Positions 27,051 to 36,727 of a stretch of DNA of 64,000 bases are shown piece by piece; the first letter of the stretch is position 1, and each line of letters begins with the position of its first letter. Source of the stretch: Alphaproteobacteria bacterium (GTDB lineage: Bacteria > Pseudomonadota > Alphaproteobacteria > UBA6615). Location of the stretch: contig JAJFIX010000031.1 in NCBI GenBank assembly GCA_021774575.1, positions 216,264 to 280,263 of the forward strand. The letters run 5' to 3'. A program made the position numbers and the translations under genes. The notes under the pieces were generated by a model that did not search any database, was not told the DNA's origin, and saw only the letters and a list, made by a program, of their open reading frames with translations.

Positions 27051-28298
27051 TTAGTTGCGACTGGCGCTTTGCTCGCTTTCGAAAAATCTGTCGATTGAGC
27101 GAAAAAACGACTCCGCAATTTGGTCGCGATAACTACGATCCATCAGCAATCGGGCCTCAGCCCGATTGGTAAGATAGCCCAGTTCCAAAAGAACCGACGG
27201 TACATCCGGTGCCTTCAAAACAGCAAATCCAGCCGACCGCCAAGGCCGATTTAGCATCGTCACATCGCGGCTGAATTCGGTGACAACCGCGTCACGGGCG
27301 AATGCGACCGACAATTCATTGGTCCTGGTTCGCGCAAAATCTATGAGTATCCCAGCAACATCGTCACCATAAACGTCCAAATCGAGCCCACCGATGATAT
27401 CGGCTTTGTTCTCTTGTTGGGCCAATTCTTCGGTTTGCTCGTCAGATGCACGTTCGGAAAGTGTGTAAACGGAAAACCCTCTGGTATCGGAATCTGGATG
27501 GGAATTCGTGTGCAACGAGACAAAAAGATCGCCCTGCGCCTGTTGCGCTGCCCGAACACGGTCGCGTAGCGGGAGGAAAATATCCCGGTCCCTGGTCATC
27601 ACAACGTCATAACGGCCCGATGCGGTCAACCGATCGCGCAGAATGCGGGCAAATGCCAAGACGATATCTTTCTCGTGAGTCCCCGCATAACTTGTCGCGC
27701 CTGGGTCAACGCCCCCATGACCCGCATCAATCACAATTACCGGCCGAGATCGCAATGGCCTGATAATAGGCCCGGCATCGGGCCGTGCATCAGGTAAGAT
27801 CGCTGAATCTGCAACTTCGGGAGATGCCGCCCTATCGCGCGACGAGACCGCCGCTAAAAATTTTTCCCGATCTGTCGATTCTAGATCGATCACCAATCGC
27901 CACGGCAAGCCGTCTTCCGCTGGCAAGGCAAAATGTCCTGCGACTCTAGCTGGCCCCTTAAGATCAAGCACAACACGGCTGGTGCCAGGGCGGAACAAGC
28001 CGTAGCGGATCGTCTCTATCACCCCTGCACTGGCGTTCGTTTTGTCCGAAATCATATCAAACTCGACCGTCGGCAGATCGATGACAATGCGATAAGGATC
28101 GGTCATCTCAAATATTTCAGGCCGGGCCTCACCCGACACGTCGAGGACGACGCGCGTACTGTCGGGATGCAGGCCGAGCCGAATATCACTGACAAAAAGC
28201 GGTGCGGCGTCGCCAGGCGAAATACTCATCCCCCCGACCATGACCGCCACAGCCAAGCCAGCATAAAAGCTAGAGTGGGGTATGTGCGCCAAACGCAT
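27051..28298 (-). CDS. amiC: N-acetylmuramoyl-L-alanine amidase with AMIN domain
   Basis: About 415 residues. A signal peptide (MRLAHIPHSSFYAGLAVAV, cleavage near GDAAP) exports it. An AMIN domain follows (DIRLGLHPDSTRVVLDVSG), which targets AmiC-type enzymes to the septum. The amidase_3 catalytic domain has zinc-ligand motifs IDAGHGGVDPGA and VSLHTNSHPD, with ALELGYLTN-like LLELGYLTN near the end. It splits the amide between MurNAc and the stem peptide at cell separation. The start is uncertain: ATG 28298 gives a standard signal peptide, while ATG 28352 gives an 18-residue longer N-terminus. Confidence 0.9.
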   Translation of the reverse strand: MRLAHIPHSSFYAGLAVAVMVGGMSISPGDAAPLFVSDIRLGLHPDSTRVVLDVSGEARPEIFEMTDPYRIVIDLPTVEFDMISDKTNASAGVIETIRYGLFRPGTSRVVLDLKGPARVAGHFALPAEDGLPWRLVIDLESTDREKFLAAVSSRDRAASPEVADSAILPDARPDAGPIIRPLRSRPVIVIDAGHGGVDPGATSYAGTHEKDIVLAFARILRDRLTASGRYDVVMTRDRDIFLPLRDRVRAAQQAQGDLFVSLHTNSHPDSDTRGFSVYTLSERASDEQTEELAQQENKADIIGGLDLDVYGDDVAGILIDFARTRTNELSVAFARDAVVTEFSRDVTMLNRPWRSAGFAVLKAPDVPSVLLELGYLTNRAEARLLMDRSYRDQIAESFFRSIDRFFESEQSASRN

Positions 28299-28406
28299 AA
28301 ACCCGCGGGCCAAGCCTGACGGTAAATTAGAACCAAAAAATAAGTTAAACATCGTACAAATTGCCGTCCATTTTGAAGCCAGGATCCAGGTGCCGGACAA
28401 CACCAA

Positions 28407-29144: not shown

Positions 29145-31724
29145 ATGACGAAGAGAATGCTTATTGATGCAGCGCATGCCGAAGAAACCCGCGTTGTTGT
29201 CGCCGATGAAAAGCGGCTGATTGATTACGATCACGAAAGCAGCACCAAGAAACAAATCAAAAGTAATTTTTATCTGGCCAAAGTAACCCGGGTCGAGCCC
29301 TCGCTGCAGGCGGCCTTTGTGGATTTTGGCGGCAACAGGCACGGCTTCCTGTCGTTCAGCGAAATCCACCCGGATTATTATAAAATACCGGTCGAAGACC
29401 GCGAGGCGCTACTCGAGGAAAGCAAACCTGAGCCAGAAGGCGATGATGGCGACGAAGTCGAAAGCCAGGCCGAAGGCGAAACTTTCGAAGAGCTGGGCGG
29501 CGATGAGAGCGACGATATTGAGCGCGCCGGAGAAGCCCAACGCCGACGCGTTCGTTCGGCGACACGCCAATATAAAATCCAAGAAGTCATAAAACGCCGG
29601 CAAATTCTGCTAGTGCAGGTGGTCAAGGAGGAACGCGGCAACAAGGGAGCAGCGCTCACTACCTATCTGTCCCTTGCCGGCCGCTACTGCGTCTTGATGC
29701 CCAACACCGCGCGTGGTGGCGGAATATCGAGAAAAATAACGGCACCACAGCACCGCAAACGCCTGCGCACCATTCTACAGGACTTAGAGGTCCCGACCGG
29801 AATGGGCGTCATTTTGCGCACTGCCGGGGTTGAGCGCAGCAAGGCCGAGATCAAGCGGGATTATGAATATTTACGACGCCAGTGGGATGAAATTCGGGAT
29901 CGCACCCTGGAATCGACGGCCCCGGCCCTGATCCACGAAGAAGGTAATGTCATCAAAAGAGCTTTACGCGATCTCTATGCTCGTGAGATTGAAGAAATCT
30001 TAATTGATGGCGATGAGGCCTATAAAACAGCCCGAAACTTCATGAAAATGATGGTTCCTTCGCACGTAAAGCGTATTCAGAAATATACCGACACCCAAAT
30101 ACCCATGTTCCATCGCTATGGGATCGAGGCGCAGCTAGATAGTATCTATGAGCTGAACGTCCACCTGCCGTCAGGCGGCTATATTGTCCTAAATTCGACA
30201 GAAGCCTTGGTCGCCATTGATGTCAACTCAGGCCGTGCCACACGCCAACGCAATATTGAGCAAACTGCCCTCCATACAAACCTGGAAGCGGCGGAAGAAG
30301 TCGCCCGCCAACTTCGTTTGCGCGATTTGGCCGGACTGGTTGTCATTGATTTCATCGACATGGAAGAGCAACGGAACAATAACGCGGTCGAGCGGCGGCT
30401 TAAAGAATCGATGCGGGTTGACCGGGCGCGTATTCAGGTCGGCCGGATTTCCCATTTCGGGTTAATGGAATTATCGCGCCAACGACTTCGCCCAAGCCTC
30501 TTGGAGGCCAGCAGCCGAACTTGCGATATCTGCGGCGGCGCCGGCGTGGTGCGTTCGACAGAATCGACATCACTCAAAGTGCTCAGGGCAATTGAAGAAG
30601 AAGGCATCCAAAAACGCACCCAGGAAATCAAGGTTTCCTTGCCAACATCTGTCGCGCTCTATGTGCTCAACGAAAAACGCAAATCTCTTTCCGATATTGA
30701 GCTACGACATGACCTCAGCGTTTCGATTACCGCGGATAATACATTAATCACACCCGATTTCCGGATCGAACGTGTTGGCGGCCAAAATACGGGCGAAGCC
30801 GACAGTAAAGAAACGCGGGAGCGTAGCGGTGGGCGCAGAAATAATGAACGACGCGGCCCGGCGCGCCCTGACCGAATTACCGGAGAGGGTGAACAAGCCA
30901 ATAACGAGAATGGCGAAGATCGCGGCCGTCGCCGTCGCCGTCCGCGCCGTCGGCGAGACGAAGAGGCGAGAAACCCCGAGACCACAGAAATAGCGGTTTC
31001 GACAACCTCTCCGACCGACGAAACTGCGCGTGCAACGGAGCAAGTGGCGGACGGGCAAAATGAACCGAGCAATGCCGACACAACCAGAAATGCAGACGGC
31101 CGCCGTCGTCGGCGCCGCGGTCGTGGTGGGCGTCGGGGACAGTCCGCAGCATCCCCGGATACCGGCAGGACTGAGACCTCCGAAATAACACAGCCCGAAA
31201 TACAAGAGGGCGTTACCCAGGTAGCAGCAGCCGAAGTCACACCGGAAGACAAACGTGAAGACGCGAGTAGTGACGCCCCTGCCCGGCCGCCCCGTAGCCG
31301 ATCCCGGCGTGGCACCAGAAGCCGAAGCAACGGGAGTACAGCCAGCCCGACTGAAGAGAATGCGAGCACAATTGATGCCGTGCAAGCAACGGAAGTGCAA
31401 AGCGCAGCAGATGATACCGAGGCAAAAGCGGCTGAAACCGCACCAAGCCCAGCCAAAGCTAGGCGCCGCACGAGCACTGGACGAGGCAGAGGCCGCCGTC
31501 CTGCTGCGGCTAAGGCTGAACAAGAAACTGAAGATGCGGCGCCAGGAGAAGTTTCTGCCCCGGTAAACGACAATTCGGGCTCGGAGACCTCTGCCAAACC
31601 GAAAGCAAGCGAAAGCAAGCCTGAGGCACCGATCGCCGAAAGTGACGCGCCTGTCGGTGGCGGCGCTGTGCCGGCGACGAAGCGTTCGTCACGCAAGGGC
31701 TGGTGGAATAGGGTTACCGGGTAA
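29145..31724 (+). CDS. rne: Ribonuclease E
   Basis: An 859-residue RNase E, the core endonuclease of the RNA degradosome. An N-terminal S1 domain (from about residue 35, FYLAKVTRVEPSLQAAFVDF) has the acidic insertion usual in alphaproteobacteria. The catalytic DNase I-like part has VAIDVNSGRATRQRN at about residue 357 and VVIDFIDME at about residue 403. The zinc-link is CDICGGAG near residue 460. From about residue 545 the protein is low-complexity, with Arg-rich patches (RRRRRPRRRRDEE) and Ala/Glu/Thr-rich stretches, the expected scaffold and RNA-binding tail. It is transcribed away from amiC. Confidence 0.96.
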   Translation: MTKRMLIDAAHAEETRVVVADEKRLIDYDHESSTKKQIKSNFYLAKVTRVEPSLQAAFVDFGGNRHGFLSFSEIHPDYYKIPVEDREALLEESKPEPEGDDGDEVESQAEGETFEELGGDESDDIERAGEAQRRRVRSATRQYKIQEVIKRRQILLVQVVKEERGNKGAALTTYLSLAGRYCVLMPNTARGGGISRKITAPQHRKRLRTILQDLEVPTGMGVILRTAGVERSKAEIKRDYEYLRRQWDEIRDRTLESTAPALIHEEGNVIKRALRDLYAREIEEILIDGDEAYKTARNFMKMMVPSHVKRIQKYTDTQIPMFHRYGIEAQLDSIYELNVHLPSGGYIVLNSTEALVAIDVNSGRATRQRNIEQTALHTNLEAAEEVARQLRLRDLAGLVVIDFIDMEEQRNNNAVERRLKESMRVDRARIQVGRISHFGLMELSRQRLRPSLLEASSRTCDICGGAGVVRSTESTSLKVLRAIEEEGIQKRTQEIKVSLPTSVALYVLNEKRKSLSDIELRHDLSVSITADNTLITPDFRIERVGGQNTGEADSKETRERSGGRRNNERRGPARPDRITGEGEQANNENGEDRGRRRRRPRRRRDEEARNPETTEIAVSTTSPTDETARATEQVADGQNEPSNADTTRNADGRRRRRRGRGGRRGQSAASPDTGRTETSEITQPEIQEGVTQVAAAEVTPEDKREDASSDAPARPPRSRSRRGTRSRSNGSTASPTEENASTIDAVQATEVQSAADDTEAKAAETAPSPAKARRRTSTGRGRGRRPAAAKAEQETEDAAPGEVSAPVNDNSGSETSAKPKASESKPEAPIAESDAPVGGGAVPATKRSSRKGWWNRVTG

Positions 31725-31739
31725 TTTATGATGCCGCGA

Positions 31740-31761
31740 GGCGGCCCTCAGCCGGGCCGCC
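31740..31761. terminator. GC-rich hairpin between converging genes
   Basis: A perfect eight-base-pair stem, GGCGGCCC at 31740-31747 with GGGCCGCC at 31754-31761 and a six-base loop, lies between rne and the converging aminotransferase gene and covers the latter's last codons. No T run follows on either strand, so intrinsic termination is doubtful. Confidence 0.35.
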
Positions 31762-32908
31762 GCCGCTCGTGCCAACCAACCAGCCTCTCAACAGCCTTTT
31801 GCGTGTCTTCGTTGGACCCGGAAAAGCAAAACCGGACAAAACGATTGCCGCGGAACGGATCGAAATCGATGCCCGGTGTCGCCGCCACACCGGCTTCACG
31901 CAGCATTAAGTGGCAAAATTGCGTGCTGTCATTTGTTAAGTTCCCAACGTCGGCATAAATATAAAAAGCGCCATCTACCGGCGCGATTTTGTCGAACCCC
32001 GCTGCGGGCAGACCGTCGAGCAAAACCTGCCGGTTGCGGGCATAGGCGGCAACATTCTCACGCAGTTCCTCATGGCAATCGAACGCCGCCATCGCAGCGA
32101 TCTGCGACAAGGTTGGCGTCGAGATAAAGAGATTTTGTAATAAACGTTCAACCGAGCGGACTAAGTCTTGTGGCACAACAAGCCACCCGATCCGCCATCC
32201 CGTCATAGAGAAATATTTGGAAAAACTATTTACGACGATTGCCTGCTCGAAATTTGCCGCTGTAACCGGCGCCGCCTCATAGCTTATGCCATGGTAAATC
32301 TCGTCGGAAATCATACGAATACCGGTATTTTCACAATGGCGGTACAGAGCCTCTAACCCATCTCCATCCAACACGGTTCCCGCCGGATTGCTTGGGGAGG
32401 TTACGATTAATCCATCAATATGGCCCTCAATTTTCGCTGCCAATTCGCTAGTCAGCTGAAATCGATCTTTAACGGTGCTCAAGACAGAAACAGTCTCAAC
32501 ACCCAATGCCGCCAACATATTTCGATAGGCCGGATATCCGGGCGCGGCCATCGCCACCCGGTCGCCATGGTCGAATACGGCGAGTGTGGCGATCAGAAAC
32601 CCTGCCGAAGACCCTGTTGTTACGACAATTCTTTCTGCTCCAACATCAACACCGTAAGAGTCGCGATAATGATCGGCAATTCGTTGCCTAAGGTCGGGCA
32701 AGCCCAATGCGTCGCAATATCCGAGCCGATCCTCGTCTAGTCCGCGCTTTGCCGCCTCAATGACCCCACGAGGCGCCGATGTACTTGGCTGCCCCACCTC
32801 CATATGAACGATGTTTTCGCCCACTGCCTCGCGATCGCCGGCAGCGCGCATCATATCCATAACAATGAAGGGATCGACGGCTCCCCTGGCCGAATGTTTT
32901 ATCGCCAT
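31748..32908 (-). CDS. Class I/II aminotransferase
   Basis: A 386-residue fold-type I PLP aminotransferase. The PLP lysine is in NSFSKYFSMTGWRIGW, with TTGSSAGFLIA and TSPSNPAGTVLDGD as further signatures, and the substrate-carboxylate Arg in NRFVRFCFSG near the C-terminus. The amino donor and acceptor cannot be read. A strong GGGGGAGAG precedes the ATG. It starts 20 bases after the stop of the GGT-like lipoprotein gene on the same strand, so the two probably form an operon. Confidence 0.88.
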   Translation of the reverse strand: MAIKHSARGAVDPFIVMDMMRAAGDREAVGENIVHMEVGQPSTSAPRGVIEAAKRGLDEDRLGYCDALGLPDLRQRIADHYRDSYGVDVGAERIVVTTGSSAGFLIATLAVFDHGDRVAMAAPGYPAYRNMLAALGVETVSVLSTVKDRFQLTSELAAKIEGHIDGLIVTSPSNPAGTVLDGDGLEALYRHCENTGIRMISDEIYHGISYEAAPVTAANFEQAIVVNSFSKYFSMTGWRIGWLVVPQDLVRSVERLLQNLFISTPTLSQIAAMAAFDCHEELRENVAAYARNRQVLLDGLPAAGFDKIAPVDGAFYIYADVGNLTNDSTQFCHLMLREAGVAATPGIDFDPFRGNRFVRFCFSGSNEDTQKAVERLVGWHERRRPG

Positions 32909-32928: not shown

Positions 32929-34641
32929 CTAACGGCTCGCAACCGGGGCGGCGACACCGCTTACCCTAGGGTCAGCTTGGGCCGAACAGACAGGCGATCG
33001 AGGCAATCCTCCAGGGCAATGCACGGCCGAAACAGATCCAATAGTTGCGCTGCCGATCAATCGATGGCCACGATTTCCCAAACCGTCTATCAACGACCGC
33101 GCCAAACCGTTTTCGTAGAGCAAGATATCTTCGCGCCCGTAGGCCGCTTGCACCCGCGGCGTGGCAATTGCATCAACGAGGGTCTTGTTATCGTGCAGCA
33201 CCAGCGCTGTGACTTGAGCCAGCGCACTAACACCACCCAATCCGCCACCCGAGGCGGCCGCATAAAAAACCAAATTATTTACTTTATTGACCAGCATCGC
33301 GACGCCGGTCGGCGTTGCCAGGGCGCCCGGATCAGCCATTGGCGCTCCCAATATAACGCCGGTTCCAGGTACAATCTTGCCGATACCGAAGGGCGCGTTC
33401 ATCGAAAAGCTACAGGCCACGCTCGACCCGAACCGATCCACCGCAACCAGGCCAGCCGAATCATGAACCAAATCAAGCGCCGTGCGGGTTAGATTTGGAC
33501 CGGGGGGTATATGGCGTTGCGCATCATAACGTCCCGCCATCGCTTGCAGAATAACGGGTCCGATCAGATCATTTTGGGTCGTCGATGCAGTAAGGTTCAG
33601 CACCCAATCTTGCAGACCGGCCATCGCCAGCAGCTGCGCCTCGGCAAACATGTGGGTTTTGCTTTGGGCGTCAGAACGAATGTAGCGATCTTGGTCGGTA
33701 AAAAACGCCATTTGGGCCGCGGCCAATGCGCTTCCGTCACCTGGTGGTGGCGCAAAATTGAGTACATGCGATCCAAATTCGAGGCTGATTGGCGCCAGAA
33801 ATTCGGGCGCATAATTATCCATATCGTCAAACGCCATGACGACACCGGTGGAATTGACCGCACTGACGAACTCGCGGGCAAAATCACCGTCATATAATAG
33901 GATCGGGTCTTGGGCCGTTAACCGCCCCAAAAAATCAGCCAATTCGGGCTGGACCAAGACATCTCCTTCGCCAAGCAGGAAGCCACCCCGCCCGAAAGTA
34001 CGAGCAAAATCGGGACTGTTACGCACCTGAACCGGCGCCGATGCCAATTGGTCGGCTAAGGCGCGCGATATCGTATGCCCGTCGCGCGCCAGCTCGATTG
34101 CCGGCGCGATTAACTGTTCCCAGCGTTTGCGACCATAGCGCGCATGCAAAGCGGCCATGCCCCTGGGGTTACCCGGAACCATAGCAATATCGCGACCAGG
34201 AAAGCGCCCCGCGCCCTGCGCGAGTTGGTTCAGATAGTTGAACGGCACAAAAATGAGTGCGTCGTCGCGCCCATCGGCGACGTTATGAATTAGACAATTC
34301 CCGCCGCCCCCAAGTCCGGCCGACCCAGGCAAGGTCACCGCCATCGCAAAATAGGCTGCGATGGCCGCATCGGCGGCATTTCCACCGAGCGATAGCACAT
34401 TACGCCCGATTACCGCCGCCCGCGGCTCATCGGCAACGACCACACCGGCGAAATTTGCAATCACGCCGGGGCCGACATCGGCCAACACCACCTCTCTTTG
34501 GCCCCGAGGTTGCCCATTTCCAAAAATCGACTGGGTTGCCGAGCCCAAAATCGAAGAATTTTCGCTGCAACCGGTAATTACCAGCGCCAGAGTAAGGGCT
34601 GCCAACCCGCTCGTCGATCCAAATTTCATTCGCCGTCTCAT
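32929..34641 (-). CDS. Divergent gamma-glutamyltranspeptidase-like lipoprotein
   Basis: About 570 residues. The signal peptide ends in a lipobox VITGC, so the mature protein would be lipid-anchored. The body follows the GGT (Ntn-hydrolase) family: GRNVLSLGGNAADAAIAAYFAM, SAGLGGGGNCLIHN, the FGIGKIVPGTGVILG region and a GGGLGG loop. Two key positions differ. The DFRE motif reads IFVPF, so the substrate-carboxylate Arg is replaced by Val (codon 34246-34248). The TTHxSVVD nucleophile motif reads SAGLVAVD, so the autoprocessing Thr aligns with Ser (codon 33457-33459). Substrate and activity are therefore uncertain. ATG 34641 or 34629 are the likely starts. Confidence 0.8.
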   Translation of the reverse strand: MRRRMKFGSTSGLAALTLALVITGCSENSSILGSATQSIFGNGQPRGQREVVLADVGPGVIANFAGVVVADEPRAAVIGRNVLSLGGNAADAAIAAYFAMAVTLPGSAGLGGGGNCLIHNVADGRDDALIFVPFNYLNQLAQGAGRFPGRDIAMVPGNPRGMAALHARYGRKRWEQLIAPAIELARDGHTISRALADQLASAPVQVRNSPDFARTFGRGGFLLGEGDVLVQPELADFLGRLTAQDPILLYDGDFAREFVSAVNSTGVVMAFDDMDNYAPEFLAPISLEFGSHVLNFAPPPGDGSALAAAQMAFFTDQDRYIRSDAQSKTHMFAEAQLLAMAGLQDWVLNLTASTTQNDLIGPVILQAMAGRYDAQRHIPPGPNLTRTALDLVHDSAGLVAVDRFGSSVACSFSMNAPFGIGKIVPGTGVILGAPMADPGALATPTGVAMLVNKVNNLVFYAAASGGGLGGVSALAQVTALVLHDNKTLVDAIATPRVQAAYGREDILLYENGLARSLIDGLGNRGHRLIGSATIGSVSAVHCPGGLPRSPVCSAQADPRVSGVAAPVASR

Positions 34642-34726: not shown

Positions 34727-36064
34727 GTGCGCATTTCTGGATTTGCCGCCATTCTGTTCGTCATATTCGCTGAAACCGTTTTGGCCACACCTGCGGCGGC
34801 TCAATCACGTAATATATCTCTGATTCGGGACGCCGAGATCGAATCTACGATCCGCAGCTTCGCATCTCCAGTTTTTAGCGCCGCCGGTCTTGATCAAAAC
34901 GCCATCCGCGTCCACCTTGTTGCCGACTCAACACTTAACGCCTTCGTTCTCGGCGGGCAACGAATCTTCATTAATACCGGATTATTGCAGCGCGCCGAAC
35001 ATCCTGGCCAGCTCATTGGCGTGATTGCGCACGAGGCCGGTCATGTTGCCGGCGGTCATTTGTCGCGCTTGCGATCAGAGCTGGGAAACGCAACGGTAAA
35101 GACGATTTTATCGACGGTTCTCGGCATCGCCGTCGGCATTGTATCCGAAAGCCCCGCCGCCGGAATTGCTGTCCAGTCGGGCGGCCTGCAATTAAGTCAG
35201 CGTGGGGTACTCTCTTTTACCAGAGCCATGGAAGCATCCGCCGATCAAGCCGCACTCCGCTACCTCGACCAAGCGGGCATTTCATCCGTCGGAATCAAGG
35301 AATTCCTGACAATTTTAGGCAATCAATCGAGCCGTAGGATTGGGGCCGACCCCTATCTTCAAACGCACCCCGAGCCTGAAGCACGGGTCGCAGCGATCGA
35401 GGTTCATCTTGGCTTTTCCCGCTACACCGATCAGCCAATCCCCCTTTCAATGCTCATCCGCCACGACCGCATGCGGGGCAAACTCGATGGCTATCTGCTA
35501 CCCTACGATATCGTAGCACGCCAATACCCCGACGGAGATCGCAGCATTGCCGGACGCTATGCACGTGCCGTTGCCTTTTTTCGCCGTGGCGACCTCGCCC
35601 CGTCTCTTGCTCTCATTGACGGTTTGAAAGCAGATTTTCCCAACGACCCATTTATCTATGAAATGGAGGGCGACGCTCTTTTTAATAATCAGCAAATATT
35701 GCGCTCCGTCGTTGCCTATGAAAAATCAGTAGAGCTCGCGCCCAACGAGCCATTGCTGCGCCTTGCCCTAGCCCGGGCGCAGCTGGAAACAGAGAATACC
35801 GGCCAAGCCAGGGCGGCCCGCGACAATTTGCTCGCCGCACTCGCCCGCGACCCCGATATGACCAATGCTTGGCGGCAGCTCAACATCGCCTATGGCAGGT
35901 TAGGAGATCAAGCAAATGCCGCCCTCGCCCACGCCGAATTCGGCTTTCGAATCGGCGACAGGAGTTTGGCCGAATTTCAGGCGGAAAAGGCGCTACGACT
36001 TTTGGATAGAGGATCACCAGGATGGCTCCGGGCCAAGGATTTACTGTCCCGGCCGACCCGCTAA
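34727..36064 (+). CDS. M48 family metalloprotease with TPR-like tail (BepA-like)
   Basis: A 445-residue exported zinc protease. A signal peptide (MRISGFAAILFVIFAETVL, cleavage after AAA-Q) leads into an M48 domain with the zinc motif HEAGH at about residue 103, inside GVIAHEAGHVAGGHLSRL, and the third ligand region EASADQAALRYLDQAG. Residues from about 270 on are helical repeats resembling TPRs (SLALIDGLKADFPNDPFIYEMEGD; RSVVAYEKSVELAPNEPLLRLALA). The layout is that of BepA, which handles outer-membrane protein assembly in the periplasm. The start codon is GTG. Confidence 0.9.
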   Translation: MRISGFAAILFVIFAETVLATPAAAQSRNISLIRDAEIESTIRSFASPVFSAAGLDQNAIRVHLVADSTLNAFVLGGQRIFINTGLLQRAEHPGQLIGVIAHEAGHVAGGHLSRLRSELGNATVKTILSTVLGIAVGIVSESPAAGIAVQSGGLQLSQRGVLSFTRAMEASADQAALRYLDQAGISSVGIKEFLTILGNQSSRRIGADPYLQTHPEPEARVAAIEVHLGFSRYTDQPIPLSMLIRHDRMRGKLDGYLLPYDIVARQYPDGDRSIAGRYARAVAFFRRGDLAPSLALIDGLKADFPNDPFIYEMEGDALFNNQQILRSVVAYEKSVELAPNEPLLRLALARAQLETENTGQARAARDNLLAALARDPDMTNAWRQLNIAYGRLGDQANAALAHAEFGFRIGDRSLAEFQAEKALRLLDRGSPGWLRAKDLLSRPTR

Positions 36065-36082
36065 TTACCCCCAACCCACAAC

Positions 36083-36727
36083 TTATTCAGCGTCCGGCTG
36101 CGCGCTGGGTTGCGCCGAAGAGACAGCCGACTCAGCCATACACGCGTCATAAATGCGCTGTATTACCGGGAATGAGCTCATATCGGCAGCATATCTAGTG
36201 GCGTTAAAAACCTGTGGCACGAGACAGCAATCGGCAAGGGTAAGCCGATCACCGTGGCAAAAGCGGCCAGTACTCGTCTCGGCCACCAGCCGTCGTTCAA
36301 GGGCTAAAAAGCCAATATTGATCCAATGCAAATACCAGTCATTTGCAACCTGTTCACTGGTCAGGCCAAATCTTTCCTCGAGATGCTTTAAGACCCGCAT
36401 ATTGTTGAGCGGATGAAGGTCGCAGCCGATAGAAAATGCGAGGCTGCGGACCCGCGACCGGCCTGTAGGGTCGGCTGGCAGAAGCGGTGGTTCAGGGTGC
36501 ATCTCATCGAGATATTCGATGATGGCCAGAGATTGAGTATGTGTTTCGCCATCTCCATCAACAAGAGCCGGCACCAGCCCCTGCGGATTAACGGCCAAAT
36601 AGTCGCCTTGGTGCTGATCCCCATGCCGCAGATGAATAAAATCCCGGGCCGGGTCCAGCCCCTTGATATTGAGCGCGATGCGCACTCTATAGGCCGCAGA
36701 TGATCTGAAATAATCGTATATTTTCAT
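36083..36727 (-). CDS. maiA: Maleylacetoacetate isomerase (zeta-class GST)
   Basis: A 214-residue zeta-class glutathione transferase. The N-terminal motif SSAAYRVRIALNIKGL carries the catalytic Ser, and NPQGLVPALVDGDG with TQSLAIIEYLDE is the glutathione-binding part. In tyrosine catabolism the enzyme converts maleylacetoacetate to fumarylacetoacetate. No homogentisate genes are next to it, so the pathway link is inferred from family identity. The last 15 residues (SAQPSAQPDAE) are a low-complexity tail. Confidence 0.88.
   Translation of the reverse strand: MKIYDYFRSSAAYRVRIALNIKGLDPARDFIHLRHGDQHQGDYLAVNPQGLVPALVDGDGETHTQSLAIIEYLDEMHPEPPLLPADPTGRSRVRSLAFSIGCDLHPLNNMRVLKHLEERFGLTSEQVANDWYLHWINIGFLALERRLVAETSTGRFCHGDRLTLADCCLVPQVFNATRYAADMSSFPVIQRIYDACMAESAVSSAQPSAQPDAE

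Follow-up and report, generated by a model that had tools for sequence, protein, structure and literature searches.

The window, i.e. the whole stretch of 64,000 nucleotides of alphaproteobacterial DNA analysed here, carries a gene, ggtL, predicted to encode a lipoprotein with four cysteines and the fold of gamma-glutamyltranspeptidase (GGT). It is flanked by an aminotransferase gene on the same strand and, divergently, by a gene for an M48 metalloprotease (Table 1). The position of ggtL had been given in the initial annotation without a strand; the 570-residue frame is read from the complement of 32929-34641, and the forward strand of the same interval is interrupted by stops. The names of the ribonuclease and amidase genes were assigned from their sequences, without a family search.

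Table 1. Genes around ggtL and individual residues of its product, in window positions
Feature	Position	Strand	Remarks
ggtL, GGT-fold four-cysteine lipoprotein (predicted)	32929..34641	-	570 aa; Pfam, AlphaFold2, structure alignment
Cys25, predicted lipidation site	34567..34569	-	follows lipobox VITGC (residues 21-25); translation reading
Cys116	34294..34296	-	position of E. coli Met99; invariant in clade; predicted strand 113-120
Val132, replacing substrate-binding Arg114	34246..34248	-	alignment to E. coli GGT
Ser395, replacing nucleophile Thr391	33457..33459	-	alignment to E. coli GGT
Cys410	33412..33414	-	position of E. coli Val406; invariant in clade
Cys542	33016..33018	-	near C-terminus; invariant in clade
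Cys552	32986..32988	-	near C-terminus; invariant in clade
Class I/II aminotransferase	31748..32908	-	20 nt downstream of ggtL, same strand
M48 metalloprotease, TPR-like repeats	34727..36064	+	HEAGH motif intact; divergent from ggtL across 85 nt
Ribonuclease E/G (rne)	29145..31724	+	island neighbour
N-acetylmuramoyl-L-alanine amidase (amiC-like)	27051..28406	-	island neighbour

The only Pfam family found in ggtL was PF01019, which matches residues 81-560 with an E-value of 1.6e-66. The AlphaFold2 model (mean pLDDT 86.4) had as its best structural match 2e0w, the unprocessed T391A precursor of E. coli GGT (Z 46.2, 484 residues aligned, rmsd 2.8), with a shared fold spanning residues 53 to 567. 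Domain match and structure thus agree on a full GGT fold, as had been proposed from the sequence. The score of ggtL against TIGR00066, the NCBIfam equivalog model for GGT, was 177.1 bits and fell short of the cut-off of 357.85. Three further PF01019 genes are present in the genome of the window, in all of which the nucleophile residue is Thr; these other genes may handle glutathione turnover. A second PF01019 gene is situated approx. 2 kb past the window end on the same contig (locus L002, G000:C25:282318-284033); its nucleophile residue is Thr, and CGQG replaces DFRE.

Relatives of ggtL were gathered from 40 related genomes, from named bacterial genomes, and from 385 genomes at class level and 398 at phylum level. 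A scan of genome contigs with a single sequence gave no relatives, an alignment-based scan found them, and the loci returned by these scans yielded an alignment of 159 non-redundant proteins. On profile A2 the proteins fell into two sets separated by a score gap, with 108 four-cysteine rows at 316 bits or more and 50 other family members at 267 bits or less. The clade set of 108 was defined by the four cysteines, and the only row above 268 bits that missed one was the truncated L022. This row, in which no cysteine call was possible past the nucleophile region, was dropped together with two short sequences (L023 and L103) and duplicate gene copies. In a tree calculated with the trait columns excluded, the four-cysteine set formed one side of a single branch (SH-aLRT 100). 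In the class scan the line between the clade and ordinary GGTs was not clean at 265 bits, as two of the 10 sequences fetched from above it were ordinary GGTs and all 10 fetched from below were clade members, so that our hand count of about 105 of the 385 genomes above this score is only approximate.

The residues required for GGT chemistry are altered in ggtL in the way the initial annotation had described. E. coli DFRE (112-115) aligns with IFVP (residues 130-133), which places Val132 at Arg114, and TTHYSVVD (391-398) aligns with SAGLVAVD, which places Ser395 at Thr391 (residue numbers such as 114 and 391 follow E. coli GGT). The same kinds of loss recur across the 108 related sequences, and chance is therefore a poor account of them. 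Arg114 was found in 2 of 108 clade rows vs 41 of 50 others, and the nine non-clade rows devoid of this Arg all retain Thr391, which sets them apart from ggtL with its Ser395. Position 391 is occupied by Thr in 50 of 50 other family members, whereas within the clade it is S in 41 rows, G in 31, A in 24, T in 4, R in 4, F in 2 and N and E in one each, and the tree requires a minimum of 29 changes there within the clade. In GGT, Asp433, the lid and Ser462-Ser463 all fall within the stretch Gln430-Ser463; this stretch is reduced to 10 residues in ggtL and to 5-14 residues in the 108 clade rows, against 23-33 in the 50 others, and the lid columns 438-449 are empty in every clade row. A clade sharing Ser and lacking the Arg had been envisaged; the clade exists and is almost always without the Arg, but Ser is not common to its members, and 11 of the 12 nearest relatives of ggtL have Gly. 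Since residue 391 drifts across the clade, the Ser of the window protein is one state of a drifting site and means little. Beyond the fold, ggtL thus departs from GGT enzymes in curated score, nucleophile and substrate site alike, and by its sequence is very probably non-catalytic as a GGT.

A further 20 regions, absent from the profile, were found to comprise 18 clade members and 2 ordinary GGTs. Arg114 was seen in none of the 18, and residue 391 was T in 5, S in 4, G in 3, F in 2, A, D and Q in one each and a gap in one. Four of the five fresh Thr391 members belong to one family (f98); its loci L203-L206 have Thr-Thr at 391-392, are without Arg114 and may be where residual autoprocessing is most likely to turn up. 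The fresh Thr391 count makes the loss look less than clean, and part of the machinery may persist in some members. Along with Ser395 of the window protein, with Thr391 in four of the 108 rows and with Thr or Ser at position 409 in 103 of them, it leaves room for residual autoprocessing in some members.

These hydroxyl residues bring in another possible explanation, which we regard as unlikely, that the proteins are slow Ntn-hydrolases with Ser, or a shifted Thr or Ser, as the nucleophile, which would autoprocess and cut some other amide, e.g. in a peptidoglycan or acyl substrate. In known GGTs the exchange of Thr for Ala blocks processing and that of Thr for Ser slows it, and Ser mutants of the H. 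pylori and B. licheniformis enzymes are processed slowly, according to an excerpt of PMC8062742; the Ser at position 391 of ggtL alone is therefore not decisive. Ser or Thr occurs at 391 in 45 of the 108 clade rows and at 392 in 69, Gly483 is kept in 103, and the five fresh members with Thr391 point the same way. Against this, the nucleophile site has no conserved hydroxyl or thiol, 13 of the 108 rows have no Ser, Thr or Cys anywhere at 391-393, the nearest relatives have Gly at 391 as mentioned above, and the lid and the Asp and Ser loops of the substrate site are missing. For the same reasons the suggestion in the initial annotation that the protein may cut a different amide finds no support. 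Its other half, that the protein may not be processed at all, fares better, at the level of the clade: position 391, with its many changes, is not kept as any nucleophile, and since Gly, Ala, Arg, Phe and Glu are all tolerated there, a dependence on processing is unlikely.

While the active site drifted, four cysteines absent from the initial annotation, Cys116, Cys410, Cys542 and Cys552, are all present in 108 of 108 clade rows and occur as a set in none of the 50 other family members. In an earlier set picked by score and not by cysteines, all 92 full-length clade rows had the four, and further marks of the clade, each in at least 90% of these 92 rows, were Asp71-Glu72, Arg80, Arg160, Ser192 and Arg193. 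Counted from residue 49 onwards (E. coli numbering), the cysteines number exactly four in 106 of the 108 rows and five in the other 2. The fresh members mostly conform: 16 of 18 have all four in column, in L211 one of the four is shifted out of its column, and the L205 sequence runs into Ns after the second; L209 has four further cysteines in its open frame. In L182 all four were in column in one alignment, but not in the joint addition with the fresh sequences. From this invariance we infer that the four cysteines probably form two structural disulfides.

The proposal that the protein is lipid-anchored holds as regards the signal, the predicted lipobox VITGC after a signal peptide ending at Cys25. 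A lipobox heuristic matched 82 of 94 clade rows and 14 of 37 others, and the 12 clade rows that it missed have lipobox-like sequences by eye; the heuristic gives false positives, E. coli GGT, which is not known to be a lipoprotein, being among its matches. The fold is also predicted in a compact member of the clade from a Parvibaculum genome bin (L058), the AlphaFold2 model of which (pLDDT 92.0) aligns to 2e0w with Z 45.5 over 395 residues; approximately 49 residues lie between its pre-linker strand and nucleophile strand, vs 99 (DSSP of both models).

The usual setting of ggtL is a single island made up of amiC, rne, the aminotransferase, ggtL, the M48 protease and a DsbA of the ScsC type (typed from three examples). 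In named loci with enough flank, where "clade" means an A2 score of at least 300 bits and the fragment L053 is counted in, an M48 homologue lay within 1.5 kb in 31 of 46 clade loci vs 1 of 26 other loci, an aminotransferase homologue within 1.3 kb in 35 of 47 vs 0 of 26, the DsbA within 3.5 kb in 39 of 41 vs 1 of 26, and an rne homologue within 4.5 kb in 15 of 37 vs 0 of 21; an amiC homologue is present in several clade loci. The sole "other" locus with both M48 and DsbA was L103, a fragment and possibly a truncated clade member. The aminotransferase had been described as co-transcribed with ggtL; what can be seen is its position on the same strand, 20 nt downstream, which makes co-transcription plausible.

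These counts were first read as a DsbA linkage specific to ggtL, and this reading was overturned by control loci. In 20 hand-chosen DsbA loci from genomes without a strong ggtL match, M48 lay beside DsbA in 20 of 20, the aminotransferase was present in 12 and ggtL in 1 (L182), and the pairing of M48 with DsbA thus held in all 19 loci without ggtL. The island therefore also exists where ggtL is absent; the gene is optional in it, but its place is fixed. The DsbA directly adjoins ggtL, with no M48 match in the flanks, in five or more Acetobacterales loci (L057, L061, L078, L080 and L081), in contrast to most of the remaining clade loci. In the window itself the island DsbA is missing: a maiA-like gene lies 18 nt beyond the M48 gene (36064-36083), at the place where the relative L039 has DsbA in between. 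A search of the window genome with the L039 DsbA, run without a positive control, gave no match at 1e-5, and the five DSBA-family proteins of this genome, which look cytosolic with no signal seen, had no blastp match to five island DsbAs. With the DsbA gone from the island and no homologue found elsewhere in the genome, ggtL appears not to be strictly dependent on it.

The cysteines and the DsbA also frame a quite unlikely explanation, in which ggtL would be a new enzyme or redox protein whose active centre, or a metal site, is formed by invariant cysteines (e.g. Cys116 and Cys410). In its favour, all four are kept in every clade row while the old active site drifted, the ScsC-type DsbA is near in almost all clade loci counted, and Caulobacter ScsC is a disulfide isomerase that binds Cu(I), according to an excerpt of PMC8900818. 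However, 9 or 10 residues lie between the two C-terminal cysteines in 85 of the 108 rows and never fewer than 4, so that there is no shared CxxC motif; the DsbA linkage belongs largely to the island as such; and an even and fixed number of cysteines in an envelope protein is most simply that of a disulfide protein.

That ggtL is an ordinary GGT or a decaying pseudogene is highly improbable: it matches PF01019, but fails the curated TIGR00066 cut-off and shares its genome with three PF01019 genes that have Thr391, and the clade has long open frames and dN/dS well below 1. The latter was 0.02-0.35 in 16 close pairs of clade relatives, the window gene itself not among them, and is a rough value, from a Biopython routine with a numerical warning and with dS near or above 1 in many pairs; these pairs show that close relatives in the clade are under purifying selection. 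The fold is kept, the catalytic residues are not conserved and the relatives are under purifying selection, as in a pseudoenzyme of the GGT fold.

Among four-cysteine rows from named records, 44 of 46 are alphaproteobacterial by NCBI rank, the exceptions being L042, filed as Mesoflavibacter, and L067, the title of which reads Acidobacteria and which has no class assigned; mislabelling or contamination is probable for both records. The named members span Rhodospirillales, Acetobacterales, Minwuiales and some Hyphomicrobiales (Reyranella, Parvibaculum, Rhodobiaceae). In the phylum search, among the matches listed, all those outside the class scored 245 bits or less, and the two of them that were fetched (L174 and L175) have Thr391 and are without the cysteine set.

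Taken together, we lean towards reading ggtL as a non-catalytic, probably unprocessed, disulfide-braced envelope lipoprotein that binds or scaffolds something, the loss of catalysis being well supported by the sequence and the role presumed. The GGT fold is retained and its chemistry very probably lost; the chain would be left single and uncleaved, and two disulfides from the four cysteines would brace the fold. Held at the periplasmic face of a membrane, the protein might serve as a binding or scaffold protein, with a partner protein, a peptide or a ligand as its target. Binding of the peptidoglycan gamma-D-glutamyl group, considered on account of the nearby amiC, was set aside since the protein lacks the Arg to which the glutamyl carboxylate binds. 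The most likely setting would be the folding or quality control of envelope proteins, together with the BepA-like M48 protease encoded divergently, which is favoured because this protease is the neighbour with known biology: E. coli BepA, itself an M48 protease, either helps LptD to mature or breaks it down, probably at the BAM complex (excerpt of PMC8423444). A role of ggtL in envelope proteostasis is nevertheless put forward only tentatively, and appears doubtful. In its most specific form, which by analogy is conceivable and rather unlikely, ggtL would represent a new class of envelope proteostasis factor in Alphaproteobacteria, a lipid-anchored enzyme fold that has lost catalysis, is fastened by two disulfides and acts as a substrate-binding adaptor for the adjacent M48 protease and the ScsC-type isomerase. 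The analogy is with E. coli, where a lipoprotein (LptE), BepA and disulfide enzymes meet on LptD.

All 50 clade members scanned matched only general GGT models in Pfam and NCBIfam and no separate model, and automated annotation is thus likely to count them as glutathione-degrading enzymes; the clade is probably misannotated as such, as its sequences suggest that its members probably do not degrade glutathione. Among the matches listed in a search of the open-access literature, as far as their partial texts extend, we found no paper on a bacterial clade of GGT-fold pseudoenzymes. By its fold the clade belongs to the GGT family, within which it forms a conserved, probably non-catalytic alphaproteobacterial group with four cysteines. 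It may offer a test case for an N-terminal-nucleophile hydrolase turning into a structural protein, and adds an unknown part to an envelope island of Alphaproteobacteria that also encodes an M48 protease, a DsbA-type isomerase and a cell-wall amidase.

Compared with known systems, ggtL shares its whole fold with E. coli Ggt (MEROPS T03, PF01019, 2e0w), and glycine-rich segments, e.g. with Gly86-Gly87, Asp91 and Ala92, are common to both. The clade differs from E. coli Ggt in being without conserved Thr391, Arg114, Asp433 and Ser462-Ser463 and without the lid loop, and in having four invariant cysteines and, in most members, a predicted lipoprotein signal. The same fold is found in the GGTs of extremophiles, which have Ser in place of Arg114 (excerpt of PMC8062742), and in HpxW, B. 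halodurans 2nlz and LmbA; these named proteins stand outside our alignment, in which the divergent GGT-like rows that lack Arg114 and do not belong to the clade keep Thr391, unlike ggtL. Inactive homologues of GGT are already known: human GGT2 gives only an inactive propeptide and is 94% identical to GGT1, according to an excerpt of PMC12663528. It is a near-copy of GGT1, whereas ggtL belongs to a deep bacterial clade with invariant cysteines of its own.
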